Below, piece by piece: positions 1,035 to 47,769 of a stretch of 64,000 nucleotides of DNA (positions within the stretch are counted from its first letter, which is position 1; each line of letters starts with the position of its first letter). The notes beneath the pieces are model-generated. The model searched no databases, had not been told where the DNA came from, and was given only the letters and a program-made list of their open reading frames with translations. This DNA comes from Pseudomonadota bacterium. GTDB taxonomy: Bacteria; Pseudomonadota; Gammaproteobacteria; Burkholderiales; Burkholderiaceae_C. The stretch spans positions 1-64,000 of the forward strand of contig JAIUPH010000013.1 of assembly GCA_020161065.1 (NCBI GenBank). The letters run 5' to 3'. The translations under genes and the position numbers were made by a program.

Positions 1035-1048
1035 GTACGCTACCGCAC
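1035..1048. promoter_or_regulatory. Operator-like palindrome, site 1
   Basis: GTACGC-TA-CCGCAC matches 10 of 12 fixed positions of the window-wide consensus GTACRC-N2-GYGTAC. It begins 3 bp upstream of the livG-like start codon, so a bound protein would block its transcription start or ribosome loading. Site 2 (1097-1110) lies in the same divergent gap. Confidence 0.6.
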
Positions 1049-1096
1049 AATAAGGCTCCGTACCTCGGGATTTTCCCCGTCGCGGCGGCGGCGGTC

Positions 1097-1110
1097 GTAC
1101 GCTAGCGTAA
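1097..1110. promoter_or_regulatory. Operator-like palindrome, site 2
   Basis: GTACGC-TA-GCGTAA matches 11 of 12 fixed positions of GTACRC-N2-GYGTAC. It ends 34 bp upstream of the acyl-CoA ligase start at 1145. The embedded TACGCT hexamer resembles a -10 box, which would suit a repressor site overlapping the promoter (inference). Confidence 0.75.
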
Positions 1111-1144
1111 GACCAACGCCGATCCGGCGAAGGACGCGCTTCCC

Positions 1145-2704
1145 ATGCAAGGCACCCGTTTCCTGATGCAGGCCGTGGCCAACCAGCCGCAGCGCACCGC
1201 CACCATCTGCAACGGCCGCCGCCGCAGCTGGGCGCAGCTGGGCCAGCGCGTGCCGCGGCTGGCGGCGGCGTTGCGGGCCTTGGGCATCGAAGGCGGCAAC
1301 TTCGTCGCCGCGCTGGCGATGAACGCCGACCGCTACGTCGAGCTGTTCTTCGCCGTGCCCTGGGCCGGCGGCGCCTTCGCGCCGCTGAACATCCGCTGGT
1401 CGGTCGAGGAAAACGTCTATGCCCTCACCGATTCAAAGGCCTCGGTGCTGTTCGTCGACGACAGCTTCCTGGACCAGGCGCTGGAACTCAAGCGCCGGCT
1501 GGCCTGGGTGCAGCACCTGGTGTGGATGGGCGAAGGCCCCTGCCCCGAAGGCCTGCTGGACTACGAAACGCTGGTCGAAGGCCACCCGCCGATGCCCGAC
1601 GCCGGCCGCCGGGACGAGGACCTGTGGGTCATCTTCTACACCGGCGGCACCACCGCGCACCCCAAGGGCGTGATGATGAGCCACCGCGGCCTCTTCGTCG
1701 CCACGCTGGGCTACCTGGCCTGGCTGCCCGACATCGAGGACTTGAGCTTCGTCTACGTGGCCGGCTACTTCCACTTCGCCGGCGCCAGCGCGCTGCTGTA
1801 CATCACGCTGGCCGGCGGCACCCACATTCCGCTGCCCAAGTTCGACCCCGTGCTGGTGATGCAGGCGATCAGCGAGCACAAGGCCACCAACGCGGTGCTG
1901 GTGCCGACCATGATCAACCTGCTGATCCACCACCCCGACTTCCACCGCTACGACCTGAGCAGCCTGCGCACCTGCGTCTACGGCGGCAGCCCGATGCCCG
2001 AGGCGCTGATCACCGCGGCGATGAGCAAGCTGCCCACCTGGCGCTTCTACCAGGTGTTCGGCATGACCGAGACCGGCGGCTTCGCCAGCGTGCTGCGCTG
2101 GCGCGACCACGTCACCGGCGGCGCCAAGGCGCGCCGGCTGCGCTCCGCCGGGCAGGCGGCGCCGGGCAACGAGATCCGCATCCTGTTGCCCGACGGCCGC
2201 GAGGCGCCGCCCGACACGCTGGGCGAAATCGTCGTGCGCAGCGACATGCTGATGAACGGCTACTTCAACAACCCGCAAGCCACCGCCGGGGTGCTGAAGG
2301 ACGGCTGGATGCACACCGGCGACGCCGGCACGATGGACGAGGACGGCTTCCTCTACGTGGCCGACCGCATCAAGGACATGATCGTCACCGGCGGCGAGAA
2401 CGTCTACTCGATCGAGGTCGAGCGCGTGCTGTTCCAGCACCCCGCGGTGCGCGAGGCCGCGGTCATCGGCATCCCCAGCGCGCAATGGGGCGAGAGCGTG
2501 CACGCGGTGGTCGTGCCCAAGGACGGCATGACCGTCACCGAGGCCGAGCTGGACGCCCACTGCCGCGCCCACATCGGCGGCTACAAGGTGCCGCGCAGCT
2601 ACGAGTTCCGCGCCGAGCCGCTGCCCGTCACGCCCGTCGGCAAGGTGCGCAAGAACGTGCTGCGCGACCCGCACTGGGCGGGGCGCGACCGCAAGATCGC
2701 TTGA
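1145..2704 (+). CDS. Acyl-CoA synthetase (AMP-binding, FadD-like)
   Basis: Activates a carboxylic acid to its CoA thioester through an acyl-adenylate, in the cytoplasm. The 519 residues show every hallmark of the adenylating superfamily: P-loop YTGGTTAHPKG (165-175; GGT where SGT is usual), GMTET (306-310), the GDAGTMDEDGF and DRIKDMIVTGGENV blocks, and the C-terminal catalytic lysine K500 in VGKVRK. AAGGA at 1131-1135 supports the ATG start. It lies 25 bp upstream of a periplasmic binding protein, so the pair may import and activate the same acid. Chain-length or ring specificity cannot be read from the sequence. Confidence 0.93.
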   Translation: MQGTRFLMQAVANQPQRTATICNGRRRSWAQLGQRVPRLAAALRALGIEGGNFVAALAMNADRYVELFFAVPWAGGAFAPLNIRWSVEENVYALTDSKASVLFVDDSFLDQALELKRRLAWVQHLVWMGEGPCPEGLLDYETLVEGHPPMPDAGRRDEDLWVIFYTGGTTAHPKGVMMSHRGLFVATLGYLAWLPDIEDLSFVYVAGYFHFAGASALLYITLAGGTHIPLPKFDPVLVMQAISEHKATNAVLVPTMINLLIHHPDFHRYDLSSLRTCVYGGSPMPEALITAAMSKLPTWRFYQVFGMTETGGFASVLRWRDHVTGGAKARRLRSAGQAAPGNEIRILLPDGREAPPDTLGEIVVRSDMLMNGYFNNPQATAGVLKDGWMHTGDAGTMDEDGFLYVADRIKDMIVTGGENVYSIEVERVLFQHPAVREAAVIGIPSAQWGESVHAVVVPKDGMTVTEAELDAHCRAHIGGYKVPRSYEFRAEPLPVTPVGKVRKNVLRDPHWAGRDRKIA

Positions 2705-3927: not shown

Positions 3928-4536
3928 CTACAGCGCCCAGTTCGCCCGCAGCGACGGCCGCTGGCCGAAGGCTTGCGCCCAGGCGGCGACAGCGGGGTAG
4001 CGCTGGCGCCAGCCGAAGTCGGCGAAGCGCAGGTCCAGGTACCACAGCATGCAGGCCAGCGACAGGGTGCCGATGTCGACCCTGCCCTGCAGCGCGGCGG
4101 TGTCGCGCTCCAGCGCCTGCAGCGTGGTGTGCGCCTTGTCCAGCTGGGCGCTTCGCCACTCGGGCCAGCGCAGGCTTTCCGGGCGGGCCACTTCTTCATA
4201 ACGCGCCAGCAAGGCGGCTTCCAGCACGCCGTCGGCCAGCGCCTGCAGGCGCAGCGCGGCCCAGCGCGCCGGGCCGCTGGGCGGGAACAGCCGGCCGCCG
4301 CCGGCCAGGTCGTCGAGGTACTCGCAGATCACGCGGCTGTCGTAGAGCACGCTGCCGTCGTCGGCAAAGAAGGTCGGCACCTTGCCCAGCGGGTTGACGG
4401 CGATGATGGCGGCGTCGCGGTTGACCGGATGGGCGTTCGACGGCAGCAGCTCGATGCGCGCCGACAAGCCCAGTTCGTGCGCACTGACCAGGCACTTGCG
4501 CACGAAGGGCGAGTTGGGGGAGAACAGCAGCTTCAT
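3928..4536 (-). CDS. Glutathione S-transferase family protein
   Basis: A 202-residue two-domain GST-like protein. The N-terminal thioredoxin-like domain opens MKLLFSPNSPFVRK, with the SPxSPxxRK pattern at the glutathione site, followed by NPLGKVPTF (cis-Pro loop) and an ESRVI-like strand (DSRVICEYLDD). The C-terminal half is helical. It is the last gene of the leftward run that begins at 13406, 34 bp after the flavoprotein gene, and converges on the binding-protein gene ending at 3908. In this setting it may detoxify or isomerise a reactive intermediate; the substrate cannot be told. Confidence 0.85.
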   Translation of the reverse strand: MKLLFSPNSPFVRKCLVSAHELGLSARIELLPSNAHPVNRDAAIIAVNPLGKVPTFFADDGSVLYDSRVICEYLDDLAGGGRLFPPSGPARWAALRLQALADGVLEAALLARYEEVARPESLRWPEWRSAQLDKAHTTLQALERDTAALQGRVDIGTLSLACMLWYLDLRFADFGWRQRYPAVAAWAQAFGQRPSLRANWAL

Positions 4537-4570
4537 CGCGGGGTCCTTCCGGGGTCAGTCGATCGGACGA

Positions 4571-6322
4571 TCATGCGGCCAGGCGCGGCAACGGTACCGT
4601 GTCGTCGGCGCCGGCGGCGGCGGCCGCCGCCCGCGTGCCGGCGATCCAGCCGAAGCTCAGCGCCGGGCCCAGCGTGATGCCCGGCGCCGGGTACTCGCCG
4701 CCCATCACCGAGTGCATGTCGTTGCCGGCGGCGTACAAGCCCGCGATCGGCCGGCCCTGCGCGTCCAGCGCCTGCGCGCCGGCGTTGCAGCGGATGCCCA
4801 CCGCGGTGCCGATGTCGCCGGCATACACCTTCACCGCGTAGAACGGCGCGCGCCGCAGCGGGCCCAGGCAGGCGTTGGGCTGGTGGTCGGCGTCGCCGAG
4901 GTAGCGGTTGTAGGCGGTGCTGCCCTTGCCGAATTCATCGTCGACGCCGCTGGCGGCATAACCGTCGAAGCGGGCGGCCGAGGCCGCCAGGGCATCGCCC
5001 GGAATGCCCAGCTGCGCCGCCAGCGCCGGCAGCGTGTCGGCCTTGAACAGGTAGCCGTCGCGCAGCAGGTGCTCGCGCGGGCGGCCGCCGGGCAGCGCCA
5101 GGCCCAGGCCCCAGCGCTCGATGAAGTCGTGATCGCACACCAGGTAGGCCGGGAACGTGGGCGCGCCGTTGCGCTGGCTGCGGTACATCGCCAGCACGAA
5201 CTCGTGGTACGAGGTCGATTCGTTGACGAAGCGCCGTCCGGCGCCGTTCACCGCCATCAGCCCCGGCTTGGCGCGGTCCCACACCAGGTGCGGATAGCGC
5301 TGCACGGAGCCGTCGGCGCGCCGGCGCAGCGACACCGGCGCCCAAAACGCCGGGCTCTGGTGGCCGCTGCCCAGCACGGCGCCGGCGGCTCGCGCCAGCG
5401 CGATGCCTTCGCCGCGGTTGTCGGCCGGCGCCATCGACCACGGGCCGGTGGGCTGCGGGTACAGCTCGGCGCGCAGCGCGTCGCTCCACGGAAAGCCGCC
5501 GGTCGCGACGACGACGCCGCCGCGCGCACGCACGCGCAGGCTGCGGCCGTCGTGCAGCACCTCGGCGCCGACGACGCGGCCGCCGTCGAGCAGCAGGCGC
5601 TGCAGCGGCGCGCGCAGCCAGTAGTCGATGCGGCGGTCGAGCACGGTCTTGAACAACGCCGCGGCCAGCGCGTTGCCCAGCAGCAGCCGCGTGCCGCGGT
5701 GGTGGCCGCGCAGGCGGTCGGCGGCGTAGCGCAGCACCAGCTTCATGCCTTCGCGCCACGAGGTGAACGACTTCGTCACCGCCAACAGGTGGCGCACGTC
5801 GGTCATGTTGACCATCATGCCGCCGAGCACGGTGAACTCGGGCAAGGGATCGCGCAGCTCGCGGAAGTGCGCGCCCAGCAGCCGGCCGTTGAAGGCCAGC
5901 GGGTCGAGCGAGCGGCCGCCCAGCGCGGCGCCTTCGCGGTCGGGGTAGTAGTCGGGCGAATGGCTGCGCGCCAGCAGCCGCAAGGCGCTGTGCGACTGGA
6001 AGAAGTCCACCATCGCCGGCGCGGCGTCGAGGAAGGCCTGCTGCAGTTCGGCCGGCGCCGCGTCGCCGACCACGGCGCGCATGTAGGCGCGCACGCGCTC
6101 GGGCGTGTCGGGGTGGCCGACGGCGGCGCTCTGCGCGTTCAGCGGCGCCCAGATCGCGCCGCCGGAAACGGCCGTCGAGCCGCCGATGCGGTCGGTCTTC
6201 TCGACCATCAGCACGCGCGCCCCGGCCACCTGCGCGGCAATGGCCGCGCCCATGCCGGCGGCGCCGCTGCCGGCCACCAGCACGTCGACCTCGTGGTCCC
6301 ACGCCGTCGCTGAATCGCTCAT
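4571..6322 (-). CDS. FAD-dependent 3-ketosteroid-dehydrogenase-like flavoprotein
   Basis: A 583-residue member of the FAD_binding_2 family (fumarate reductase/3-ketosteroid delta1-dehydrogenase group), which introduces or removes C=C bonds next to a ring ketone. The dinucleotide-binding GSGAAG is at 18-23, followed by VEKTDRIGGSTAVSGGAIW. The C-terminal block GNDMHSVMGGEYPAPG (ending near 547) with GITLGPALSFG matches the KstD signature, including the tyrosine before PxPG. The start is set by an ATGA overlap with the upstream SDR. The neighbours are SDRs and an importer. No steroid-ring-cleavage genes are present, so a ring desaturase acting on an oxo-cycloalkane carboxylate is equally plausible (inference). 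Confidence 0.85.
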   Translation of the reverse strand: MSDSATAWDHEVDVLVAGSGAAGMGAAIAAQVAGARVLMVEKTDRIGGSTAVSGGAIWAPLNAQSAAVGHPDTPERVRAYMRAVVGDAAPAELQQAFLDAAPAMVDFFQSHSALRLLARSHSPDYYPDREGAALGGRSLDPLAFNGRLLGAHFRELRDPLPEFTVLGGMMVNMTDVRHLLAVTKSFTSWREGMKLVLRYAADRLRGHHRGTRLLLGNALAAALFKTVLDRRIDYWLRAPLQRLLLDGGRVVGAEVLHDGRSLRVRARGGVVVATGGFPWSDALRAELYPQPTGPWSMAPADNRGEGIALARAAGAVLGSGHQSPAFWAPVSLRRRADGSVQRYPHLVWDRAKPGLMAVNGAGRRFVNESTSYHEFVLAMYRSQRNGAPTFPAYLVCDHDFIERWGLGLALPGGRPREHLLRDGYLFKADTLPALAAQLGIPGDALAASAARFDGYAASGVDDEFGKGSTAYNRYLGDADHQPNACLGPLRRAPFYAVKVYAGDIGTAVGIRCNAGAQALDAQGRPIAGLYAAGNDMHSVMGGEYPAPGITLGPALSFGWIAGTRAAAAAAGADDTVPLPRLAA

Positions 6323-7059
6323 GCGCCCGATCCCCCCAGCGACTTGCCGCCGTCGACGAACAGCACCTGCCCGGTGATGAAGTCGGTCTGCGGCGAGGCC
6401 AGGAAAGCCACCGCCTGCGCCACGTCCTGCGGCCGGCCGGCCTTGCCGGTGGGCTGCAGCGCCAGCTGCGCGGCCAGCCGCTCGGGCGTCAGCGCGCGCA
6501 GGATGGGCGTGTCGATCAGCCCCGGCGCGATGGCGTTGACGAGGATGCCGCGCGGCGCCAGCTCCATCGCGCTGGCGCGCGTGTAGCCGACCAGCGCCGC
6601 CTTCGAGGCCACGTAGTGCGGGTGGTTCTTGGCGCCGAGGTAGGCGCGCGAGGCGATGTTGACGATGCGCCCGCCCGCCGGCATGGTGCGCGCCACCTCC
6701 TGCGTGAGCGTGGCCACCGCGACCAGGTTGACCTCGTAGGCGCGGCGGAAGTCGGCCGTCTGCACGTCGAAGAAGCGGCGCTCGTCGAAGATGCCGGCGT
6801 TGTTGACCAGCGCGTGCAGCGGCGGCAGCGAGCGCACCAGCGCGCGCACCGCGGCCTCGTCGGTGAGGTCCAGCACGTGCACGCCGACGGCCAGCCCAGC
6901 GGCGCGCAGCGCTGCGCCTTCGCGCTCGGCCAGCGGGCCGTCGCGGTCGACCAGCGCGACCTGGAAGCCTTCGCGCGCCAGCCGCTCGACGATGGCCAGC
7001 CCCATGCCGCTGGCGCCGCCGGTCACCAGCGCGTGGCGGCTGCCTTGCTGCTCGTTCAT
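6319..7059 (-). CDS. Short-chain dehydrogenase/reductase (FabG-like)
   Basis: NAD(P)-dependent oxidoreductase of 246 residues with classical SDR landmarks: TGGASGMG near residue 14, NNAG, catalytic YVASK preceded by a serine in NIASRA, and a PGLIDTP loop. It probably interconverts a hydroxyl and a ketone on a CoA ester or ring. Its stop overlaps the start of the KstD-like flavoprotein (ATGA), so the two are translationally coupled. An alcohol-to-ketone step feeding a ketone-adjacent desaturation would make sense (inference). 48 bp containing small repeats separate it from the upstream SDR. Confidence 0.9.
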   Translation of the reverse strand: MNEQQGSRHALVTGGASGMGLAIVERLAREGFQVALVDRDGPLAEREGAALRAAGLAVGVHVLDLTDEAAVRALVRSLPPLHALVNNAGIFDERRFFDVQTADFRRAYEVNLVAVATLTQEVARTMPAGGRIVNIASRAYLGAKNHPHYVASKAALVGYTRASAMELAPRGILVNAIAPGLIDTPILRALTPERLAAQLALQPTGKAGRPQDVAQAVAFLASPQTDFITGQVLFVDGGKSLGGSGA

Positions 7060-7077
7060 CGTTGGTTCCTCGTTCTT

Positions 7078-7105
7078 TCGCCGTTCGTTCGCCGTTCGTT
7101 CGCCG
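7078..7105. repeat. Short tandem repeat (TCGCCGTTCGT-like, ~2.5 copies)
   Basis: Between two SDR genes the sequence repeats an 11-bp unit about two and a half times. It covers the region where the ribosome-binding site of the downstream SDR (start 7059) would lie, and that gene has no clear Shine-Dalgarno sequence apart from GGAACCA-like bases. It may be replication slippage. Confidence 0.6.
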
Positions 7106-7107
7106 GT

Positions 7108-7860
7108 TCAAGCGGCCAGGAAGCCGCCGTCCACCGGCAGCACCACGCCGTTCACATAACTGGCCATCGACGAGGCCAGGAAGACCACCGGCCCGACGAT
7201 CTCGTGCACCTCGCCGCCGCGCTTCATCGGCACGCGGTTCATGTACCAGTCGGTGCCGCCGGGCACCGCCAGCTGCGGCGCCACCATCTCGGTGAGCATC
7301 AACCCCGGCGCCACCGCGTTGGCGCGCACGCCGTGCGGCGCCAGGTCGCGCGCCAGCACCTGGGTCAGCGAGCGCACGGCGCCTTTCGACGCCACGTAGC
7401 CCGCGGTGGAGATGCCGCTGACGAAAGCGACGATCGACGACAGGTTGACGATGCAGCCGCGGCTGGCCTTCAGCGCCGGCACGAAGGCCTGGGTGACGTT
7501 GAACAGGCCTTCGAGGTTGACGCCGATCACCCGGTCCCAGACCTCGGCGGCCTGCGGATCGTCGATAGCCGCGCGGCCCGAAATGCCGGCGTTGTTGACC
7601 AGCACGTCGATCGGCCCGTGCTGCTGCTGCACCTGCTGGGCGAAGGCCTGCACGCCGGCACGGTCGGTGACGTCCAGCGCCGCCGCCCAGGCCTGGGCGC
7701 CTTGGCTCCGCAGCCGCGCGGCCAGGCTTTGCGCCTTGGCGCCGTCGAGGTCGGCGACGATCACGCGCGCGCCTTCGGCACAGCAGCCGGCGGCGATCGC
7801 CGAGCCCAGGCCGCCGGCGGCGCCGGTCACCAGCGCCAGCTTGTTCGTCAGCAGGTCCAT
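7108..7860 (-). CDS. Short-chain dehydrogenase/reductase (FabG-like)
   Basis: 250-residue SDR: TGAAGGLG at about 12-19, a DLDG acidic turn after strand 2 suggesting NAD preference, NNAGISG, catalytic serine in LSSIVAF, and YVASK. The C-terminus ends in PVDGGFLAA, the usual SDR tail. It follows the livF-like gene by only 4 bp and is the next member of the leftward GntR-flanked operon. It probably oxidises a hydroxyacyl-CoA or alicyclic alcohol arising from the imported substrate; nothing in the sequence fixes the substrate. Confidence 0.9.
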   Translation of the reverse strand: MDLLTNKLALVTGAAGGLGSAIAAGCCAEGARVIVADLDGAKAQSLAARLRSQGAQAWAAALDVTDRAGVQAFAQQVQQQHGPIDVLVNNAGISGRAAIDDPQAAEVWDRVIGVNLEGLFNVTQAFVPALKASRGCIVNLSSIVAFVSGISTAGYVASKGAVRSLTQVLARDLAPHGVRANAVAPGLMLTEMVAPQLAVPGGTDWYMNRVPMKRGGEVHEIVGPVVFLASSMASYVNGVVLPVDGGFLAA

Positions 7861-7864
7861 CGCA

Positions 7865-8609
<745 letters not shown>

Positions 8610-8623
<14 letters not shown>

Positions 8624-9377
8624 GCGCCGCTCCCTTGCCGAGATAGGCCTCGATGACGCGCGGGTCCGCCGCCACCTCGCGCGGCGCGCCCTCGGCGATC
8701 TTCTCGCCGAAGGACATCACGGTGATGCGGTCGGAGATCGACATCACGAGCTGCATCACGTGCTCGACCAGCAGCACGGTGATGCCCTCTTTCGAGGCCA
8801 GCTCGGTCAGCAGCCGGTCCAGGCTTTCGATGTCGCGGTTGCGCAGGCCGGCGGCGGGCTCGTCGAGCAGCAGCAGCCGCGGCTTCAGCGCCAGCGCGCG
8901 GGCGATCTCCAGCAGCTTCTGGTGGCCGAAGGGCAGTTGCCGCGCCGGCGTCTCGCGCTCGTGCACCAGGCCCACGCGCTCGATCAGGTGGTCCACCAGC
9001 TCCTGCGTCTCGCGGCCGGCGCGGCGCAGCAGCTTGCCCACCGTGTCGGCGCTGTGCGCGTGGCAGCCCAGCAGCACGTTCTCGCGCACGCTCAGCTCGC
9101 CGAACAGCTCCAGGTTCTGGAAGGTCCGCGCGACGCCGAGGGCGGCCATCTGCTCGGGCTTGCGGCGCGTGACGTCGACGCCGTCGACGTGGATGCGGCC
9201 GGCCGACGGCTGGTAGTAGCGCGAGATGCAGTTGAAGGTGGTCGACTTGCCGGCGCCGTTGGGGCCGATCAGCGCGTGGATGGTGCCGCGGCGCACCTGG
9301 AACGACAAGCCGTTGACGGCCAGCAGGCCGCCGAACTTGACGGTAATGCCTTGCACGTCGACGAACGGCGTGGTCAT
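8610..9377 (-). CDS. LIV-type ABC transporter ATP-binding protein (LivG class), GntR operon
   Basis: 255-residue ATPase partner of the adjacent LivF, LivM and LivH. Motifs: Walker A GPNGAGKS, ARTFQNLELF Q-loop region, a degenerate signature LPFGHQK, Walker B LLLLDEP and LVEHVM. The start is placed at the ATG at 9377 (MTTPFVDV), which has a G-rich SD-like AGGGGG; an in-frame TTG at 9434 would add 19 low-complexity residues and is less likely. The 70-bp gap to livM carries two hairpins. Confidence 0.92.
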
Positions 9378-9379
9378 CC

Positions 9380-9416
9380 GGCCCCCTGGGGCCTGCGGCC
9401 CGTCGCCCCCAGGGGG
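9380..9416. other. Two small GC hairpins between livM and livG
   Basis: GGCCCC-CT-GGGGCC (9380-9393) and CCCCC-A-GGGGG (9406-9416) lie within the operon between livM (stop 9448) and the livG start (9377). They lack a T-run. They may be an mRNA-stability or attenuation element setting the permease:ATPase ratio, or simply one of the GC-rich intergenic repeats common in Burkholderiales. Confidence 0.5.
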
Positions 9417-9447
9417 AGCGAGCGCGAGCGGCAAACCCCGATCGCGC

Positions 9448-10389
9448 TCATGCGATGGGCCTCTGCGCGCGCTTGAAGGTCGACGCGAACAGCCCCTTGG
9501 GCTTGAACATCATGAAGCCCATCAGGATGGCGCCGTAGATCACCTCCTGGATCGACAGCGCCTGGCGCAGCAGCTCGGAGATCAGCCCGAAGGCGATGGC
9601 GCCGGCCACCGCGCCGCGCACCGAGCCGATGCCGCCCACCACCACCATGGTCAGCACCAGGATGGTGGTCTGGAAGCCCAGGCTCTCCGGGTGGATGAAC
9701 GAGGTGAACAGCGTGTACATGCCGCCGGCCACGCCGGCGAAGGCGGCCGAGATGGCGAACGCGGTCTGCTTCATCGCCTTGACGTTGATGCCCATCGCCA
9801 GCGCCGCGACGTCGCTCTCGCGCACCGCGCGCAGGCACGAGCCGAACTGCGAGCGCGACAACAGCACCGTCAGCCACAGCATCAGCGCCGCCAGCAGCAC
9901 CACGAAGGGGTAGGCCTGCAGGTCGTTGCTGAGCTTCAGGCCGAACAGCTCGGCCGGCTGCATGCGCATGCCGTTGGAGCCACCGGTGACCGATTCCCAG
10001 TTGAGGAACACCCATTGCATCGCCTCGCCGAAGGCGAAGGTGGCCAGCGCCAGGTAGATGTCGCGCATGCGCAGCGCCAGCAGGCCGATCACGTAGCCCA
10101 GCAGCGCCGACAGCAGGCCGCCGGCGACGATGGACACGACGAAGGGCGGATGCCAGGCGGCGTTGACCAGCCCCGCGGTGTAGATGCCGATGCCGTAGAA
10201 CGCGGTGTGCGACAGCGCGAACTGCCCCGCCTCGCCGATGACCACGTGCATGCCCAGCGCCAGCACGACGAAGACCATCAGCAGGTTCACCACGTACAGC
10301 ACGTAGCCGCTGGCGGTGAAGGGCAGCACCAGCAGCAGCACGGCGGCGGCGGCCAGCGCCCAGCGGTCGACGGCGGCGATGTCCTTCAT
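9448..10389 (-). CDS. LIV-type ABC transporter permease (LivM class), GntR operon
   Basis: 313-residue inner-membrane permease with about eight to ten hydrophobic segments and the LivM family signatures GEAGQFALSHTAFYGIGIYT near the N-terminus and VVVGGIGSVRGAVAGA near the C-terminus. It forms the translocation pore with the LivH protein. The ATG at 10389 (MKDIAAVDRW) overlaps the livH stop (ATGA), which fixes the start; the reading frame is open further upstream only as a shadow of livH. Confidence 0.92.
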   Translation of the reverse strand: MKDIAAVDRWALAAAAVLLLVLPFTASGYVLYVVNLLMVFVVLALGMHVVIGEAGQFALSHTAFYGIGIYTAGLVNAAWHPPFVVSIVAGGLLSALLGYVIGLLALRMRDIYLALATFAFGEAMQWVFLNWESVTGGSNGMRMQPAELFGLKLSNDLQAYPFVVLLAALMLWLTVLLSRSQFGSCLRAVRESDVAALAMGINVKAMKQTAFAISAAFAGVAGGMYTLFTSFIHPESLGFQTTILVLTMVVVGGIGSVRGAVAGAIAFGLISELLRQALSIQEVIYGAILMGFMMFKPKGLFASTFKRAQRPIA

Positions 10390-33522: not shown

Positions 33523-33537
33523 GCGCGCACCCCCTTC

Positions 33538-38683: not shown

Positions 38684-38702
38684 GTGCTCCCGATCCTATA
38701 AA

Positions 38703-38716: not shown

Positions 38717-38738
38717 ATCTTAGGGCCTGGCCCGCTGG

Positions 38739-40754: not shown

Positions 40755-40831
40755 GCTCGGTCTCCTGCAGTGCTTGCCCTGTTGGGGAAACCCCCGTGCC
40801 CGCCGGGGGCGCGGAGCCTTGTTCCTTTATC

Positions 40832-40845
40832 GTTCACTAGCGTAT
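40832..40845. promoter_or_regulatory. Operator-like palindrome, site 11
   Basis: GTTCAC-TA-GCGTAT, 10 of 12 matches to GTACRC-N2-GYGTAC, in the divergent gap 77 bp from the acetoacetyl-CoA synthetase start and 48 bp from the HMGCS/DUF35 fusion start at 40894. Confidence 0.65.
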
Positions 40846-40893
40846 CATGCAGCACATCATCAAACCCGCCATCCGGACCATCCCTCCCCGCCG

Positions 40894-42351
40894 ATGACTC
40901 AAGCGCCCGCCATCTTCGGCCTGTTGGCCACCACGCGCTACCTGCCGCGGCTGCGCCTGGAACGCGCCGAGGTCTTCAACCAGCACCGCTGGATGGCGCC
41001 CGGCCTCAAGGGCCTGGCCAAGGGCCGCCGCGCGCTGGCGCATTGGGACGAGGATACGGTGACCATGGCCGTCGAGGCGGCGCGCCAGCTCGGCGCGGCC
41101 GAAACCGCCGATGCCGTCGCCGCGCTGACGCTGGTCTCCACCAGCCTGCCGTTCGCGGAGCGCTCGAACGCCGGCATCGCCGCCGCGGCGCTGGGCCTGC
41201 CCGCCGGCGCCGCGCTGCGCGATGGCGGCGCCAGCGCGCGCGCCGGCCTGTCGGAGCTGGCCGCCGCGCTGCGCCAGCAAGGCCAGGGCCTGGCCGGCGA
41301 CAGCCTCGTCGTCGCCGCCGAGCGCCGCACGCCGCGGCCGGCCAGCGCGCTGGAGCTGATCGCCGGCGACGGCGCCGCCGGCGCGCGCGTCGGCCGCGGC
41401 GCGGCCATCGCCACGTTCGTGGCCCACCGCAGCGTGCACGCCGACTTCGTCGACCACTTCCGCGAAAGCGGCCACGCGCACGACTACGGCTGGGAAGAGC
41501 GCTGGGTGCGCGACGAGGCCTACCTCAAGCTGGTGGCCGGCACGATCAAGGCCTGCCTGGCCGATGCCGGCGTGGCCGCGGCCGACGTGGCGCACTTCGC
41601 GCTGCCGGCGCCGCTGCCGCGCGTCAACGAAGCGGTGGCGCGCAAGCTGGGGCTGCCGCCCACGGCGCTGGTCTCCACCGAGCACGAAAGCGCCGGCGAC
41701 CTGGGCAGCGCGCAGCCGCTGGCGATGCTGGACATCGCCTTGCGCGCCGCCGCGCCCGGCGCGCTGGTGCTGGTGGCGGCATTCGGCAGCGGCTGCGATG
41801 CGCTGCTGCTGCGCCGCACCGAGGTGCCCTGCCCCAGCCCCGTGCCCGGCGCCGGCAAGCCGGAAACCAGTTACCTCAAACTGCTGTCGTTCACCGGCCA
41901 GATCGACCTCGAATGGGGCATGCGCGCCGAGATGGACAACAAGACCGCGCTCACCGCCGCGTGGCGCGACCATGCGCGCGCCGCACGCTTCGAGGGCGGC
42001 CGCTGCAGCGCTTGCGGCACGGTGCAGTTCCCGAAAAGCGGCGTCTGCGTCAACCCCGAATGCCGCGCCCAAGGCACGCAAGCGCCCTTGAGCCTGGCCG
42101 ACGCCCAGGCGCGCGTGATGTCGCACACCACCGACTTCCTGGCCTACACGCCGCACCCGCCGTTCCAGTTCGGCCACGTCGACTTCGACAACGGCGCGCG
42201 CGTGCTGATGGAGTTCGCCGACGCCGACGCCGGCGAGCTGGCCGTGGGCCTGCCGCTGCGCATGGTCTACCGCATCAAGGACTTCGACCGCCAGCGCGGC
42301 TTCAGGCGCTATTTCTGGAAAGCGACCCCCGTGCGCAGGGAGACCAACTGA
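40894..42351 (+). CDS. HMG-CoA-synthase-like/DUF35 (OB-fold, zinc ribbon) fusion
   Basis: 485 residues. The first ~350 have the thiolase fold of HMG-CoA synthase-like proteins, and the rest is a DUF35 domain with zinc ribbon C-x2-C...C-x4-C (about 370-389) and a C-terminal OB fold. At the position of the HMGCS nucleophile the sequence reads GGASARAG, without Cys, so the synthase-like part may be structural or bind acyl-CoA only. DUF35 proteins pair with SCP2-type thiolases in steroid aldolases and in BbsAB thiolase; the next gene is such a thiolase (TGATG overlap). Probably a two-subunit C-C bond-cleaving complex. Confidence 0.82.
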   Translation: MTQAPAIFGLLATTRYLPRLRLERAEVFNQHRWMAPGLKGLAKGRRALAHWDEDTVTMAVEAARQLGAAETADAVAALTLVSTSLPFAERSNAGIAAAALGLPAGAALRDGGASARAGLSELAAALRQQGQGLAGDSLVVAAERRTPRPASALELIAGDGAAGARVGRGAAIATFVAHRSVHADFVDHFRESGHAHDYGWEERWVRDEAYLKLVAGTIKACLADAGVAAADVAHFALPAPLPRVNEAVARKLGLPPTALVSTEHESAGDLGSAQPLAMLDIALRAAAPGALVLVAAFGSGCDALLLRRTEVPCPSPVPGAGKPETSYLKLLSFTGQIDLEWGMRAEMDNKTALTAAWRDHARAARFEGGRCSACGTVQFPKSGVCVNPECRAQGTQAPLSLADAQARVMSHTTDFLAYTPHPPFQFGHVDFDNGARVLMEFADADAGELAVGLPLRMVYRIKDFDRQRGFRRYFWKATPVRRETN

Positions 42352-43559
42352 TGGCCAGCGGCATCCGCGACAAGGTCGCCATCCTGGGCATGGGCTGCTC
42401 GCGCTTCGGCGAGCGCTGGGACGCCGGCGCCGACGAGCTGATGCTCGAAGCCTTCAACGAAGCCAAGGCCGACGCCGGCATCGACTTGAAGCAGATCGAA
42501 GCAGCTTGGCTGGGCGTGTGCCTGGAAGAGAACAACGTCGGCAAGACCGCCGGCCCGCTGGCCGCCGCACTACGGCTGCCGCGCATCGCCGCCACGCGGG
42601 TGGAAAACGCCTGCGCCACCGGCACCGAGGCCTTGCGCGGCGCGGCATACGCGGTGGCCGCCGGCGCGTACGACATCGTGCTGGCGCTGGGCGTCGAGAA
42701 GCTCAAGGACACCGGCTACGGCGGCCTGCCGGTGCGCACCCGCGGCGTGGCCAACGACCTGTGGCTGCCCAACAGCACGGCGCCCGGCGCCTTCGCGCAG
42801 CTGGCCTCGGCCTACGCCGCCAAGCACCGCGTCGACCCCAAGGACCTGAAGCGCGCGATGGCGCACGTCTCGGTCAAGAGCCACGACAACGGCGCGCTCA
42901 ACCTCAAGGCGCACTTGCGCAACCGCATCACCGAAGACGACGTGCTGAAGGCGCCGACCATCGCCGCGCCGCTGGGCCTGTACGACTGCTGCGGCGTCAG
43001 CGACGGCGCGGCCTGCGCGATCCTGACCACGCCCGAGATCGCGCGCGCGCTGCAACCGGGGCGCGAGCTGGTGACGATCAAGGCGCTGGAGCTGTCGGTC
43101 AGCAACGGCGAGGAAGCGGGCTTCCGCCAATGGGACGGCGCCGGCATCCAGACCGCGCGCGAGGCCGCGGCCCGCGCCTACGCCGGCGCCGGCATCGGCG
43201 ACCCGCGGCGGCAGATCGGCATGGCCGAGGTGCACGACTGCTTCTCGGTCACCGAGACCGTGCTGATGGAAGACCTGGGCTTCAGCGCGCCGGGCCGCGC
43301 CATCCACGATGTGCTGGACGGCTGCTTCGACCGCGACGGCGCGCTGCCGGTGCAGCCCGACGGCGGGCTCAAATGCTTCGGCCACCCGATCGGCGCCTCC
43401 GGGCTGCGCATGGTCTACGAGATCTGGCTGCAGCTTCAGGGCCGCGCCGGCGAGCGGCAGTTGAAGAAGCCCTTCGACCTGGGCCTGACGCACAACCTCG
43501 GCGGACACCCGCACCAGAACGTCTGCGCCGTGGCCATCGTCGGCCGCCAAGGTGCTTGA
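42351..43559 (+). CDS. SCP2/lipid-transfer-type thiolase
   Basis: 402-residue thiolase-fold protein. Nucleophile C88 in VENACATG, catalytic His in EVHDCFSVTE, and CFGHPIGASGLRM. The C-terminal Cys of ordinary thiolases is replaced by HNLGG, as in SCP-x, Ltp2 and BbsB proteins that need a DUF35 partner. It would cleave a 3-oxoacyl-CoA (or perform retro-aldol cleavage) jointly with the upstream fusion protein, whose stop it overlaps by one base. AGGGAGACC serves as ribosome site. Substrate not determinable; the alicyclic/branched context is consistent with BbsB-like use. Confidence 0.9.
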   Translation: MASGIRDKVAILGMGCSRFGERWDAGADELMLEAFNEAKADAGIDLKQIEAAWLGVCLEENNVGKTAGPLAAALRLPRIAATRVENACATGTEALRGAAYAVAAGAYDIVLALGVEKLKDTGYGGLPVRTRGVANDLWLPNSTAPGAFAQLASAYAAKHRVDPKDLKRAMAHVSVKSHDNGALNLKAHLRNRITEDDVLKAPTIAAPLGLYDCCGVSDGAACAILTTPEIARALQPGRELVTIKALELSVSNGEEAGFRQWDGAGIQTAREAAARAYAGAGIGDPRRQIGMAEVHDCFSVTETVLMEDLGFSAPGRAIHDVLDGCFDRDGALPVQPDGGLKCFGHPIGASGLRMVYEIWLQLQGRAGERQLKKPFDLGLTHNLGGHPHQNVCAVAIVGRQGA

Positions 43560-43592
43560 ATCGCCACCTCGCCCACCTTCCACGCCCACACC

Positions 43593-44378
43593 ATGAACGA
43601 CGAAGTCTCTCCCGTGCTGTCCAGCGTCGACGGCAACGTCGGCCTGATCACGCTGAACCGGCCGCACAAGTTCAACTGCCTGTCGCCGCAGGTCTTCGAC
43701 GAGATGCAGCAGGCCTTGCGCCGCCACGAGGCCGATGCCGCCGTCCGCTGCATCCTGATCGAAGGCGTCGGCGACCATTTCTGCACCGGCGCCGACCTCG
43801 ACGCCGTGCAGCACCGCCGCAGCGAGCCCGCGGTGCTGCGCGAGTACATGCGCACCGGCCACCGCGCCATGCTGGCGCTGGAAGCCAGCCCGCTGCCGGT
43901 GGTGGTGGCCGTGCAAGGCCTTTGCCTGGCCGGCGGGCTGGAGCTGATGCTGTCCTGCGACGTGGCCGTGGCCGCCGGCAATGCGCGCTTCGGCGACCAG
44001 CACGCGCAGTTCGGCCTGGTGCCGGGCTGGGGCGGCAGCCAGCGGCTGCCGCGCATCGTCGGCATGCGCCGGGCGATGCATTTGTTCTTCACGGCGCAGC
44101 GCATCGATGCGGCCACCGCCTTGTCGTGGGGCCTGGTCAACCAGGTCTGCGAGCGCGACGAGCTGCACGCCGCCGCGCTGGCCTATGCGCAAGGCATGGC
44201 CAAGCGCAGCCGCCAGGGCCTGGCCGCGATGAAGCGGCTGGCGCGCGAAGGCGCCGACATCACGCTGGCCAAGTCGCTGGTGATGGAAGAAGACATCGGG
44301 CTGCACGCGCTGCTGCACCCCGACGTCACCGAAGGCCTGGCCGCGTTCCAGCAACGCCGCGAGCCCGATTTCAAGTAG
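43593..44378 (+). CDS. Enoyl-CoA hydratase family protein, BadK candidate
   Basis: 261-residue crotonase with HFCTGADLD and LAGGLELMLSCD (first catalytic Glu present). FGDQHAQFGLVPGWGGS has His in place of the second Glu. It is followed within 23 bp by the BadH-like SDR and then the BadI-like hydrolase, the gene order expected for hydration of cyclohex-1-enecarboxyl-CoA, oxidation and ring opening. That context makes it the best local candidate for the BadK role; sequence alone would give only enoyl-CoA hydratase/isomerase. ATG at 43593, 33 bp after the thiolase. Confidence 0.88.
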   Translation: MNDEVSPVLSSVDGNVGLITLNRPHKFNCLSPQVFDEMQQALRRHEADAAVRCILIEGVGDHFCTGADLDAVQHRRSEPAVLREYMRTGHRAMLALEASPLPVVVAVQGLCLAGGLELMLSCDVAVAAGNARFGDQHAQFGLVPGWGGSQRLPRIVGMRRAMHLFFTAQRIDAATALSWGLVNQVCERDELHAAALAYAQGMAKRSRQGLAAMKRLAREGADITLAKSLVMEEDIGLHALLHPDVTEGLAAFQQRREPDFK

Positions 44379-44401
44379 CAGCCACAAGGAGTGCAATTCC
44401 C

Positions 44402-45172
44402 ATGCGAGGACTGAGCGGCAAGACCGCCATCGTCACCGGCGCCGGCAGCGGCATCGGCCGCGCCATCGCCACGCGGCTGGCGGCCGAGGGCTGCGTGGTC
44501 GGCGTGTTCGACATCAACGAGGCCGGCGCCGCTGCCACCGTGGCCGCGATCGAGGCCGCCGGCGGCAAGGCGCTGGCGGTGCCGGCCGACATCACCGACT
44601 ACGCCGCCGTCGCCGCCGCAGTGGCGCGCTTCGAGCAGCAGGCCGGCCGCGGCACCGACGTGCTGGTCAACAACGCCGGCTGGGACACGCCGATGCCCTT
44701 CCTGAAGACCACGCCCGAGTTCTGGGCCAAGGTCACGGCGATCAACTGGTTCGGCCCGCTGCACATGACGCACGCGGTGGCGCAGGGCATGAGCGCGCGC
44801 AAGAGCGGGCGCATCGTCAACATCGCCTCCGACGCCGGCCGCGTGGGCAGCAGCGGCGAGGTGGTGTACTCGGGCTGCAAGGGCGCGACCATCGCCTTCG
44901 CCAAGGCGCTGGCGCGCGAGCTGGCGCGCCACCAGGTGACGATCAACACCATCTGCCCCGGCCCCACCGACACGCCGGCGATGGACGCCTTCGTCGGCAG
45001 CGGCGAGCAGGGCCAGAAGATCCGCGACGCCATGGTCAAGGGCGTGCCGCTGGGCCGCATCGGCGTGCCCGACGACTACCCCGGCCTGGTGGCCTTCCTG
45101 GCCAGCGACGACGCGGCCTTCATGACCGGACAGACGATCTCCGTCTCCGGCGGACTCACGATGCATGGGTGA
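44402..45172 (+). CDS. BadH-like SDR (2-hydroxycyclohexanecarboxyl-CoA dehydrogenase candidate)
   Basis: 256-residue SDR: TGAGSGIG, FDINE (NAD-type turn), NNAGWDTPMPF, serine in IASDAG, catalytic YSGCK, CPGPTDTPAMD, and C-terminal ISVSGGLTMHG. The NNAGWD..PF and YSGCKGATIAF segments resemble BadH and related 2-hydroxycyclohexanecarboxyl-CoA dehydrogenases (from memory). AAGGAG at 44386-44391 supports the ATG. It lies 6 bp upstream of the BadI-like gene, matching the badHI pair of Rhodopseudomonas. It would make 2-ketocyclohexanecarboxyl-CoA, the substrate of the next enzyme. Confidence 0.85.
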   Translation: MRGLSGKTAIVTGAGSGIGRAIATRLAAEGCVVGVFDINEAGAAATVAAIEAAGGKALAVPADITDYAAVAAAVARFEQQAGRGTDVLVNNAGWDTPMPFLKTTPEFWAKVTAINWFGPLHMTHAVAQGMSARKSGRIVNIASDAGRVGSSGEVVYSGCKGATIAFAKALARELARHQVTINTICPGPTDTPAMDAFVGSGEQGQKIRDAMVKGVPLGRIGVPDDYPGLVAFLASDDAAFMTGQTISVSGGLTMHG

Positions 45173-45178
45173 AGAAAC

Positions 45179-45976
45179 ATGAGCAAGGACTACAAGGACA
45201 TCCTGTACGACGTGGCCAACGGCGTCGTGCGCATCACGATCAACCGGCCGGAGGTCTACAACGCCTTCCGCAACCAGACGCTGGAAGAGCTGATCGACGC
45301 GCTGCGCCGTGCCGACGAAGAGCGCAGCGCCAACGTGATGGTGCTGGCCGGCGCCGGCGACAAGGCCTTCTGCACCGGCGGCGACCAGAAGGTGCACTAC
45401 AACGAGAGCGGCCTCTACGGCCCGCGCGGCACCGTGGGCATGCCCATCGAAGAGATGCACGCCGCGCTGCGCGACCTGCGCAAGGTGTCGATTGCCAAGG
45501 TGCAGGGCTTCGCGATCGGCGGCGGCAACGTCTTCGCCACCGTGTGCGACCTCACCATCGCCAGCGAGAAGGCGCAGTTCGGCCAGGTCGGGCCCAAGGT
45601 CGGCTCGGTCGACCCCGGCTGGGGCACGGCGTACCTGTCGCGCGTGCTCGGCGAGAAGAAGGCGCGCGAGATCTGGTTCCTGTGCCGCCGCTACAGCGCG
45701 GCCGAGGCCGAGAAGATGGGCCTGGTCAACAAGGTGGTGCCGCACGATCAGCTCGACGCCGAGGTCGACAAGTGGTGCGACGAGATCAACCAGCTGAGCC
45801 CCACCGCGCTGACCATCGCCAAGCGCAGCTTCAACGCCGACACCGAGCACATCCGTGGCATCGGCTTCCTGGGCATCCAGACCGTCAAGCACTACTACCA
45901 GAGCGACGAGTCCAAGGAAGGCGTGGCCGCTTTCAACGAGCGGCGCAAGCCCGACTTCAAGAAGTTCGTGACTTGA
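45179..45976 (+). CDS. BadI-like 2-ketocyclohexanecarboxyl-CoA hydrolase (ring-cleaving crotonase)
   Basis: 265-residue crotonase of the MenB/BadI subgroup. Diagnostic stretches are FCTGGDQKVH, GGGNVFATVCDL, FGQVGPKVGSVDPGWGTAYL, GEKKAREIWFLCRRY and the tail RRKPDFKKF. BadI hydrolyses the 2-ketocyclohexane ring to pimeloyl-CoA; the MenB-type GPKVGS loop rather than a hydratase PE loop supports that assignment over simple hydration. Placed directly after the BadH-like gene. Its stop overlaps the next start (TTGA). One of the strongest clues to the pathway. Confidence 0.88.
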   Translation: MSKDYKDILYDVANGVVRITINRPEVYNAFRNQTLEELIDALRRADEERSANVMVLAGAGDKAFCTGGDQKVHYNESGLYGPRGTVGMPIEEMHAALRDLRKVSIAKVQGFAIGGGNVFATVCDLTIASEKAQFGQVGPKVGSVDPGWGTAYLSRVLGEKKAREIWFLCRRYSAAEAEKMGLVNKVVPHDQLDAEVDKWCDEINQLSPTALTIAKRSFNADTEHIRGIGFLGIQTVKHYYQSDESKEGVAAFNERRKPDFKKFVT

Positions 45977-47232
45977 CGACGGCCAGCTTGAGCCGCCTGC
46001 TGGCCCCCGGCCAGCGGGTCTGGCTGCCGACGATGGCCAACCAGTCGGCGCTGCTGGTCGACCAGTTGCAGGCCGACCCCGAGCGCGCCGCCGGCGTCAC
46101 CTTCTGCGGCGTGCAGTTCCCCGGCATCGACAGCTTCGACCCGCTGGCGCTGCACCCGCAGGCACGGCAGATCGGCGGCTTCATGACGGCGGGGCTGCGC
46201 CGCGGCATCGCGCAAGGCCGCGCCGAGCTGCTGGCGCTGGACTACCTGGCGTTGGCGCGCCACCTGCAGCACGAGGCGCCGCCGTTCGACATCGCCTTCG
46301 CGCAGCTGACGCCGCCCGACGCCGACGGCTGGTGCGCGCCGGGGCTGTCGGCCGACTTCACGCCGCTGGTGTGGCCGCGCGCGAAGCGCCGCGCGGCGCA
46401 CCTCAATCCGCGGCTGCCGCGGCTGGCCAGCAGCTTCCGCGTGCACGTCTCCGAGTTGGACCTGGCGGTCGAGGCCGATGCGCCGCTGCTCGACTTCCAC
46501 GACCCCGCGGTCGGCGCGACCGAAGCGCGCATCGGCGCCCACGTGGCCACGCTGGTGCGCGACGGCGACACGCTGCAGTTCGGCATCGGCGCGGTGCCGC
46601 TGTCGCTGGCCGCCGCCCTGAGCGGCCACCGGCGGCTGCGCTTCCACGGCGGCATGCTGCCGTCGGCCGTGATGACGCTCGACGCGGCCGGCGCGCTGGA
46701 CCGCGACGCCGTGATGACCGCCGGCTTGGTGCTCGGCGACGCGGCGCTGCGCGACTGGGTGCGCGGCGGCAAGCCGTCGCTGCGGCTCACCGACGTGACG
46801 CAGACGCACGGCCCGGCCGCGCTGGCGGCGTTGGGGTCCACCACCCGCTTCGTCGCGATCAACAGCGCGGTCGAGGTCGACCTCTTCGGCCAGGTCAATG
46901 CCGAGCGCGCCAACGGCATGCTGCAGGCCGGCGCCGGCGGGCTGCCGGCCTTTGCGCAAGGCGCGCTGGCGGCGCCCGGCGGCCGGCTGGTGATCGCGCT
47001 GCCGAGCACGGCGCGCGGCGGCACGGTCTCGCGCATCGTGCCGGCGCTGGGCGATGGCGGCCTGGTCACGCTGCCGCGCCACCTGGCCGACGCGGTGGTC
47101 ACCGAGCATGGCGTGGCCGAACTGCGCGCGCTGCCGCTGGATGCGCGGGCCAATGCGTTGATCGCCATCGCCGACCCGGCGCAACGCGGCGCGCTGTCGG
47201 CCGCCTGGGACGATTGGCGCCGCAAGCTGTGA
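45973..47232 (+). CDS. Acetyl-CoA hydrolase/4-hydroxybutyrate CoA-transferase family protein
   Basis: 419-residue type I CoA-transferase fold. Conserved landmarks are LQFGIGAVPLSLAAAL, INSAVEVDLFGQVNAE with the putative catalytic Glu, and VVTEHGVAELRALPLDARA. It would exchange CoA between the pathway acid and acetyl- or succinyl-CoA, or recover CoA. The start is the TTG at 45973 overlapping the BadI-like stop by 4 nt; the first in-frame ATG would cut 20 residues of conserved fold. It ends in a GTGA overlap with the thioesterase. Confidence 0.85.
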   Translation: MTTASLSRLLAPGQRVWLPTMANQSALLVDQLQADPERAAGVTFCGVQFPGIDSFDPLALHPQARQIGGFMTAGLRRGIAQGRAELLALDYLALARHLQHEAPPFDIAFAQLTPPDADGWCAPGLSADFTPLVWPRAKRRAAHLNPRLPRLASSFRVHVSELDLAVEADAPLLDFHDPAVGATEARIGAHVATLVRDGDTLQFGIGAVPLSLAAALSGHRRLRFHGGMLPSAVMTLDAAGALDRDAVMTAGLVLGDAALRDWVRGGKPSLRLTDVTQTHGPAALAALGSTTRFVAINSAVEVDLFGQVNAERANGMLQAGAGGLPAFAQGALAAPGGRLVIALPSTARGGTVSRIVPALGDGGLVTLPRHLADAVVTEHGVAELRALPLDARANALIAIADPAQRGALSAAWDDWRRKL

Positions 47233-47729
47233 CGACGAAGCCCACCGCCATCGACACGCCGCCCGCGGGCTTCGTCCCGGTGAAGATCGGCAGCGCCTTC
47301 GCCAGCCATTGCGCCGCCTTCCAGGCGCGCTGGCACGAAGGCCAACTGCAGCTCGGCTTCATCGTCGAGCCGCACCAGGTCAACCCTGGTGGCCATTGCC
47401 ACGGCGGCATGTTGAGCCTGCTGGCCGACGTGCTGCTGTCCAGCGCCGCGCAGTACCAGACCGACATTCCGCGCCAGTTTTTGCCGACCATCGGGCTGCA
47501 GCTCGACTTCATGAACGGCGCGCCGCTCGGCAGCTGGGTGCAGGCCGAGGCCACGATCCTGCAGGTGACGAAGAACCTGGTCTTCTCCACCGGGCTGCTC
47601 AGCGCCCGCGGCAAGCCGGTGGCGCGCGCCAGCGGCGTGTTCCGCCGCGGCCCGCTGCTGCCCGACAGCGACAGCGACCACGGCCTGCAATTGCCCGGCA
47701 TGCCGCCGCGGCCGCCGGGTTGCCCCTGA
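47229..47729 (+). CDS. PaaI-type hotdog thioesterase
   Basis: 166-residue single-hotdog protein with the PaaI signature NPGGHCHGGMLSLLADVLLSS. Such enzymes hydrolyse aryl- or acyl-CoA to prevent dead-end thioesters trapping CoA. The GTG at 47229 overlaps the CoA-transferase stop, giving tight coupling. Last gene of the 40894-47729 operon. The C-terminal 20 residues are Pro/Gly-rich and probably disordered. Confidence 0.88.
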   Translation: MTTKPTAIDTPPAGFVPVKIGSAFASHCAAFQARWHEGQLQLGFIVEPHQVNPGGHCHGGMLSLLADVLLSSAAQYQTDIPRQFLPTIGLQLDFMNGAPLGSWVQAEATILQVTKNLVFSTGLLSARGKPVARASGVFRRGPLLPDSDSDHGLQLPGMPPRPPGCP

Positions 47730-47755
47730 GTTGCAGCCGCCCGCGATCCGATATA

Positions 47756-47769
47756 GTACACATGCGTAC
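47756..47769. promoter_or_regulatory. Operator-like palindrome, site 12
   Basis: GTACAC-AT-GCGTAC matches all 12 fixed positions of GTACRC-N2-GYGTAC. It lies 40 bp upstream of the MaoC gene and 26 bp after the preceding stop, so it marks a separate promoter for the 47810-54948 operon. Confidence 0.8.

Follow-up and report, generated by a model that had tools for sequence, protein, structure and literature searches.

Which regulator, if any, governs the catabolic promoters in the first 64,000 nucleotides of contig JAIUPH010000013.1 (assembly GCA_020161065.1, Burkholderiaceae_C; this whole stretch is hereafter the window)? An initial annotation had noticed a 14-bp palindrome, GTACRC-N2-GYGTAC, at thirteen places before such genes and read it as the mark of one ~47-kb regulon. 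We find that the palindrome is the inner part of a 22-bp site with the consensus TATCGTACRCTAGYGTACGATA, which is very probably the operator of the MarR-family regulator encoded by g40 (38219-38683, minus strand; recognition helix 68-80) and of its close subfamily, with MarR repression most likely relieved by a ring-acyl-coenzyme A (acyl-CoA). Comparison between genomes establishes the site, links it to this type of MarR protein and shows that it is kept before the same genes.

All 13 sites (1035, 1097, 16817, 23725, 23749, 26512, 31881, 33538, 33607, 38098, 38703, 40832 and 47756) were recovered in a letter-for-letter check of the window, matching 12/12 fixed bases in three cases, 11/12 in two, 10/12 in seven and 9/12 in one. 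By our own gene calls, made with a codon-usage script that yields 62 genes and leaves 4.4% of the window intergenic, 13/13 lie between genes, spread over 10 intergenic regions. The proposed spacing of 3-77 bp to the start codon holds if g1 starts at 1031, but not with the start at 944 chosen by our caller, which puts site 1035 at 90 bp. A blind scan for the 14-mer with at most two mismatches finds 16 places where shuffled sequence leads one to expect 7.7 (the largest shuffled count was 15, and 0/100 shuffles reach 16); 12 of the 16 are intergenic (binomial p = 8e-14), and those at 750, 16513, 30968 and 49949 fall in genes. With a symmetric matrix built from the 13 window sites, site 23749 scores 14.1 bits, the other twelve 18.0-33.5 bits and the best unlisted place in the window 10.8 bits.

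The palindrome follows this kind of MarR protein into other genomes. A scan with the g40 protein gathered 45 loci, of which 33 (L016-L048) carry homologues 56-90% identical and 12 carry distant ones. In the former, which comprise 551,650 bp with 11.4% intergenic bases and lie out of sample for the matrix, there are 96 matches of at least 13 bits, 94 of them intergenic, and these precede the same genes as in the window. Among 30 loci whose MarR residues 67-69 read GKV, a site of at least 18 bits stands before 69/108 orthologues of sited window genes versus 7/127 orthologues of unsited ones, a difference that counts as support and not as an independent p-value because the control genes are partly operon-internal and divergent sites were counted twice. 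At the 12 distant loci (at most 41% identity) no match reaches 14 bits and two reach 13. Plasmid-borne GKV-type homologues that are 46-53% identical to g40 carry sites of 24.5 bits (Methylobacterium) and 20.5 bits (Sphingobium) next to the gene, and in Tistrella a 31.6-bit site lies 9 kb from it, within 20 kb; seven loci that hold a homologue of the HMGCS/ChsH2-like gene g42, from genomes without a close MarR homologue (L107-L113), are uninformative, as they contain almost no intergenic DNA. Together, these comparisons strongly support a local regulon under putative MarR control; the single ~47-kb regulon first envisaged is too broad, as there is no site for the genes at 3.9-14.3 kb.

At the scale of whole genomes, g40 homologues (E at most 1e-25) occur in 5/399 genomes of the same family and in 0/5 other genomes of the same genus. 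The strict pattern TNRTACRSTAGYGNACNA is likewise found in 5/399, namely four with a GKV-type MarR protein (G000, G104, G115 and G382) and G066. This amounts to 4/4 genomes with a GKV-type protein versus 1/395 without, where it is important to note that the pattern was tuned on 37 stretches including pieces of all four positive genomes, so that the 4/4 is partly built in and the Fisher value of 5e-9 is too small, while the rarity elsewhere (1/395) is independent of the tuning. Two of the three matches in G104 fall outside the tuning stretches, on C562 before a medium-chain dehydrogenase/reductase (MDR) gene and on C742 before a g42 homologue. The fifth genome with homologues, G018, has GKA-type ones only and no strict-pattern match. 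In an order-wide sample of 389 genomes, which overlaps the same-family sample and for which the pattern was fixed beforehand, it occurs in 1/1 genomes with a GKV-type MarR protein and in 2/388 others.

Within the window's own 6.29-Mb genome the exact 14-mer occurs at 3 places, all in the window; with at most one mismatch there are 15 places, 5 of them in the window, and an 18-mer extension gives 6 places (5 in the window) at 0-1 mismatch and 15 (8 in the window) at 0-2. Loose matching is uninformative, because a reversed-pattern control outnumbers the pattern itself (29 vs 15 places for the 14-mer with at most one mismatch, 268 vs 169 for the 18-mer with at most three). These genome-wide figures are pattern counts, and matrix scores were computed on selected stretches; among the off-window places so scored, three reach at least 17 bits, on C26 (18.6), C25 (17.8) and C32 (19.7), all intergenic, and the rest stay at or below 13.8 bits and lie mostly inside genes. 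The pattern match at L005 scores at most 3.3 bits, and the 20 kb to the right of the window hold no matrix match of 10 bits or more. Tight matches are not equally common in coding DNA or before unrelated genes, the outcome that the initial annotation had named as fatal to its regulon. The C25 stretch has places of 12.5 and 17.8 bits (L095:8340 and 10044) before an acyl-CoA ligase and a short-chain dehydrogenase/reductase (SDR) gene, beside a Liv-type transporter, and these are possible unlinked members of the regulon.

The consensus was drawn from 98 strong sites (at least 18 bits) in the window and 37 GKV-type loci. The 14-bp palindrome first described is present in it, but the true site is 22 bp long and built from a TA core and flanking TAT..ATA arms: the matrix of the 13 window sites already has conserved letters flanking the 14-mer on both sides and a TA centre, and the second letter T of the 14-mer and its mirror A are invariant across the 98. 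One of these sites lies in a called gene, and 49 serve one gene, 47 two divergent genes and 2 none; the middle half of them stand 47-106 bp from the start codon. The suggestion that internal TACRCT hexamers act as -10 boxes found no support; the TATAAT-like letters coincide with the outer arms and the aligned sites have no -35 peak. Furthermore, a second score of at least 10 bits at a 15-bp offset was counted for 13 anchors, which make 12 distinct pairs (that of L035 being counted twice), over a background with mean 1.0 and maximum 6 in 200 flank shuffles; the window itself holds no such overlapping pair.

The g40 protein carries a MarR domain by curated Pfam cut-offs (MarR_2, 63.5 bits vs 27; MarR, 52.3 vs 24.6), and its AlphaFold model (pLDDT 88) places the recognition helix at residues 68-80. 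The best fold match of the model is to the chains of the SlyA-DNA complex 3q5f, which shares with it the MarR fold and an alignable recognition helix at 28% sequence identity; the physiological role of SlyA differs from the one proposed here. Palindromic predicted operators stand at the promoter of g40 (38703) and at neighboring ones (38098, 40832). The same genome encodes two further close paralogues, on C32 (70-71% identical) and C7 (53%). A 19.7-bit site with two mismatches precedes the former at C32:26884, and the latter is flanked by weaker GTAT-type places at C7:109141 and 109894, with three mismatches each.

Across loci, the half-site letter goes with a residue of the recognition helix. 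Residues 67-69 read GKV in 37 of the fetched loci, GKA in 9 and TKV in 2. Scored with a C/T-neutral matrix, the fourth half-site letter has a C:T ratio of 168:31 for GKV and 18:47 for GKA loci. Counted by locus, C prevails over T in 32/37 GKV loci (T over C in 2, with 3 ties) and T over C in 7/8 GKA loci, a count that leaves out L123 as the same stretch as L097; the comparison was also repeated with L048, L115 and L123 left out for poor gene calls or duplication. In intergenic DNA the neutral matrix finds 27.0 sites per 10 kb for GKV loci (23/37 loci) and 14.4 for GKA loci (6/9 loci), with a background of 1.0. In the order sample the palindromes are near-perfect, of GTATGC type, at both GRA loci (same genus) and only weak at the single GKA locus, and 7/16 EKA or EKP loci show CTAG-centred sites of the GTAAGC or GTTGCC/GTTGTC type directly before the MarR gene, as seen in a look biased by its GTAC matrix. 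Such CTAG-centred palindromes, GTAAGCTAGGCAAC and similar, stand directly before Glu67-type MarR homologues of other families at L160:1463, L171:1457, L181:1937 and L183:1942, and are perhaps the operator of a sister subfamily.

From these data one may sketch an operator code for this wider MarR group, on which our own expectation is evenly balanced after the two new Ala69 loci with GTATGC palindromes had raised it, in which arms of the form TATNRT..AYNATA and a centre such as CTAG would stay constant while the middle letters track the start of the recognition helix: Gly67-Val69 would go with GTACRC half-sites, Gly67-Ala69 with GTATGC and the Glu67 group with GTAAGC/GTTGCC. Position 69 cannot be the sole determinant of the operator, because the EKA proteins also have Ala69; we infer that Val69 excludes the thymine methyl, which Ala69 would admit. 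On the tree, many of whose forks are weak, the GKV label must have changed at least twice, and the pairing of helix and half-site is therefore not only the history of one clade. As part of the same sketch, promoters with two palindromes overlapping at 15 bp and sharing an arm would have two dimers bound on opposite sides of the double helix. The family offers a natural MarR series whose helix residues seem to vary together with the operator bases and, if the code is true, paralogues within one genome could run separate catabolic regulons. The C7 stretch (L093) combines a GKA-type MarR gene with HMGCS-like and thiolase genes and GTAT-type palindromes at 9143, 9896 and 16848, which suggests a parallel regulon in the same genome, and on C32 (L092) a solitary MarR gene (9963-10451) with a strong site at 9886 has no directly adjoining catabolic operon, its neighbors being a MoeA-like gene, a TctC-type receptor, a 1234-aa protein with ALTTAQ repeats and a glycosyltransferase 41 gene.

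In the mechanism that we propose, a MarR dimer would occupy the palindrome at its own promoter as well as in roughly ten promoter regions of other genes. Its targets would comprise uptake by a Liv-type ABC transporter, CoA activation by the AliA-like and other ligases, dehydrogenation by the AliB-like enzyme, ring hydration and cleavage by BadH/BadI-like enzymes, and further breakdown by thiolase, HMGCS-like, CitE-like and acetoacetyl-CoA synthetase enzymes. Repression would most likely last until the acyl-CoA of a ring acid binds the MarR protein and frees the DNA; we infer the binding to the operator, the repression and the CoA-thioester effector.

Besides the tuning of the strict pattern and the make-up of the control genes given above, several observations weigh against this assignment. 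The 33 loci and the orthologue loci had been picked for their MarR gene, and the autoregulatory site is weak, reaching 18 bits before only 7/29 marR orthologues. Strict-pattern matches occur without a GKV-type MarR protein in G066 (17.8 bits), G477 (19.2) and G507 (15.9), all called intergenic, the latter two genomes having no g40 homologue. The two TKV-type homologues (L117, L119) have no site by the neutral matrix, and the 98 aligned sites show no -35 element. Finally, 36/389 genomes of the order sample, the window's own included, have a g40 homologue, and the strict pattern is found in 0 of the other 35 (38-60% identical). None of the homologues read in that sample (one per genome at 29/38 places, 42-60% identical) is GKV-type, so the site is a property of the GKV subfamily and not of all g40 homologues.

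An activating role, or a dual one, at the same sites is unlikely but is the alternative to which we grant the most room: some MarR proteins activate, and the sites lie 47-106 bp (middle half) before start codons with no visible -35 element to place them relative to the promoter. The location of sites in gaps between divergent genes and at the marR gene favors repression, as does the precedent of BadR in the available text of PMC9795900. Ownership by some other regulator, be it the local GntR protein, a TetR protein or an unlinked one, with the MarR protein a bystander, is distinctly less probable. A palindrome this long would also fit a TetR protein, a GntR gene (g14) lies in the window at 13600-14274, and an 18.6-bit palindrome at L094:9560 on C26 has a Rieske oxygenase gene on one side and an SDR-TetR operon on the other, where it could be the TetR protein's own operator. 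Yet the motif tracks the MarR gene across Burkholderiales, Rhodocyclales and Alphaproteobacteria and stands beside both paralogues in the source genome, its half-site covaries with a residue of the MarR recognition helix, and the matrix finds no site near the GntR gene of the window, just as the initial annotation had seen none before the GntR operon. That the palindrome is a compositional accident or a general genome element has next to no chance of being right: loose matches are indeed no commoner than the reversed control, but the three exact matches of the genome all lie in the window, the strict pattern is absent from 394/399 and 386/389 related genomes (overlapping samples), and the idea is refuted by the 33-locus matrix scan together with both genome-sample counts.

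A more specific alternative, that g40 is BadR and the site a variant BadR operator, we consider very improbable. BadR of the bad-ali clusters in Aromatoleum sp. CIB and Rhodopseudomonas palustris is described, in the available text of PMC9795900, as a MarR-type repressor with an acyl-CoA effector and the operator CAAN4TTG, encoded beside AliA/AliB/BadH/BadI-type genes as g40 is beside their relatives; effector and repression are shown there for BadR and would apply to g40 only by analogy. A related palindrome, AATACGTTGACGTATT, stands in the badR-badH gap of the Variovorax bad-ali cluster (L138:12229; 16.9 bits) in the absence of CAAN4TTG, a further point against our assignment and against a clean separation of the two operators in that genome; in Burkholderiales, BadR may use an operator other than the published one. 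However, the source genome and three others have separate bad-type clusters whose BadR-like MarR proteins are only 27-31% identical to g40, and the three BadR rows of the tree, which exclude the BadR-like gene of the source genome (L137, below the search cut-off), branch off separately at 100/100 support. Orthology of g40 and BadR is rejected on both counts. The operators differ as well, CAAN4TTG for BadR vs GTACRCTAGYGTAC for g40: CAAN4TTG occurs at 7 places in the window, 0 of them intergenic, the bad-ali clusters of two Aromatoleum genomes have CAATACATTG, as published for BadR (PMC9795900, available text), and no matrix match, and the source-genome and Variovorax clusters have no intergenic CAAN4TTG. 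The window's gene set is also wider than bad-ali. We read the system as a putative further MarR local regulon, distinct from BadR, of which the candidate helix-to-operator code is the newest part.

A second relative is the monoterpene island of Castellaniella defragrans with its mrcA-H genes, which shares with the window BadH/BadI-like ring cleavage, acetoacetyl-CoA synthetase, MaoC, citrate-lyase-like, thiolase and CoA transferase genes; the AliA/AliB-like genes of the window count as a difference. In the available portions of PMC4109377, three MarR genes of the island are listed but unstudied, Azoarcus KH32C is the closest organism for MrcD and MrcE, with its proteins named BadH and BadI, and Azoarcus strains had not been tried on monoterpenes. 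The MarR protein of KH32C is 49% identical to g40, GKA-type, and has GTAT-like sites. The initial annotation knew of no published regulon with this exact site, and we found none in the open-licence literature: in the portions at hand, searches for five exact 12- or 14-letter forms, for operators of monoterpene MarR proteins and for comparative studies of MarR regulons did not turn it up, and the only MarR protein in the available regulator table rows of PMC5343134 is HmgS of tyrosine degradation. A predicted operator, regulator and regulon are now proposed for a ring-acid catabolic module that is sporadically spread, and they offer sensor parts for cyclic acids.

The core operon g42-g47 (40894-47232, plus strand) encodes HMGCS/ChsH2-like, thiolase, enoyl-CoA hydratase (ECH), MrcD/BadH-like SDR, MrcE/BadI-like ring hydrolase and CoA transferase proteins. 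The product of g39 (36420-38054, minus strand) is an AliA-like relative of cyclohexanecarboxylate-CoA ligase (TIGR03208) and that of g27 (25354-26502, minus strand) an AliB-like relative of cyclohexanecarboxyl-CoA dehydrogenase (TIGR03207), and the best matches of the window to AliA, AliB, BadH and BadI fall below the NCBIfam equivalog cut-offs (710/792, 544/575, 329/431 and 420/468 bits). Elsewhere in the genome, C35 has a BadI above cut-off (511 bits) in a bad-type cluster that also encodes BadH- and AliB-like proteins and a BadR-like protein sharing 27% identity with g40; this cluster shows no matrix match of 11 bits or more and no intergenic CAAN4TTG. The g45 and g46 proteins are 71% and 75% identical to those of the KH32C plasmid cluster, equated with the genes cited in PMC4109377 by product and order (the comparison covered the KH32C and not the C. 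defragrans proteins), vs 56-58% and 64-66% to BadH and BadI of bad-type clusters. The pathway may be suited to alkyl- or isopropenyl-substituted cyclohexane carboxylates, such as arise from cyclic terpenes or naphthenic acids.

Taken in order as strandless 22-bp spans, the sites begin with 1035 (1031-1052, 25.5 bits), before the LivG-like ABC ATPase gene g1 (195-1031, minus strand; the start could be 944), of which 13/14 orthologues are sited; the contig starts at base 1 of the window, so the LivG-headed transporter operon may run off it and the cluster may be cut. Site 1097 (1093-1114, 25.3 bits) precedes the acyl-CoA ligase gene g2 (1145-2704, plus strand) and site 23725 (23721-23742, 25.0 bits) the Liv-type substrate-binding protein gene g24 (minus strand), neither with an orthologue of at least 60% for comparison; 23749 (23745-23766), 24 bp from the latter, is weak and doubtful (14.1 bits, 9/12). 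Between the divergent ECH gene g17 (minus strand) and the Rv3169-family gene g18 (plus strand), site 16817 (16813-16834, 25.2 bits) is kept in L018 and L041, with 2/2 g17 and 2/3 g18 orthologues sited. Site 26512 (26508-26529, 30.1 bits) lies before g27, with 3/7 orthologues sited, and 31881 (31877-31898, 12/12, 24.2 bits) before the acyl-CoA dehydrogenase gene g33 (minus strand), with 0/2. Sites 33538 (33534-33555, 21.8 bits), before the SDR gene g35 (minus strand; 2/3 orthologues sited), and 33607 (33603-33624, 12/12, 26.0 bits), before the zinc-type MDR gene g36 (plus strand; 3/5), form a pair also present in L024 and L030. The highest score belongs to 38098 (38094-38115, 33.5 bits), before g39 (11/17 orthologues sited). 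Site 38703 (38699-38720, 18.0 bits) serves marR alone, because the acetoacetyl-CoA synthetase gene ends there, and would be autoregulatory; 15/29 orthologues are sited when the threshold is lowered to 13 bits. Site 40832 (40828-40849, 26.9 bits) lies between that synthetase gene, g41 (minus strand; 5/5 orthologues sited), and g42 (plus strand; 20/20), and 47756 (47752-47773, 12/12, 24.5 bits) precedes the MaoC hydratase gene g49 (plus strand), followed by CitE-like and acyl-CoA dehydrogenase genes, with its 1/1 orthologue (L041) sited.

The site-free part of the window (3928-14274) encodes a 3-ketosteroid-dehydrogenase-like FAD enzyme, SDRs, a Liv-type transporter and the GntR protein, and is probably a separate regulon. 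HMGCS/ChsH2-like and thiolase genes, which occupy 40894-43559 in the window, also lie near this MarR group in the distant loci L117, L118, L122 and L123, and in distant genomes this core module often comes with MaoC and CoA-ester-lyase genes.

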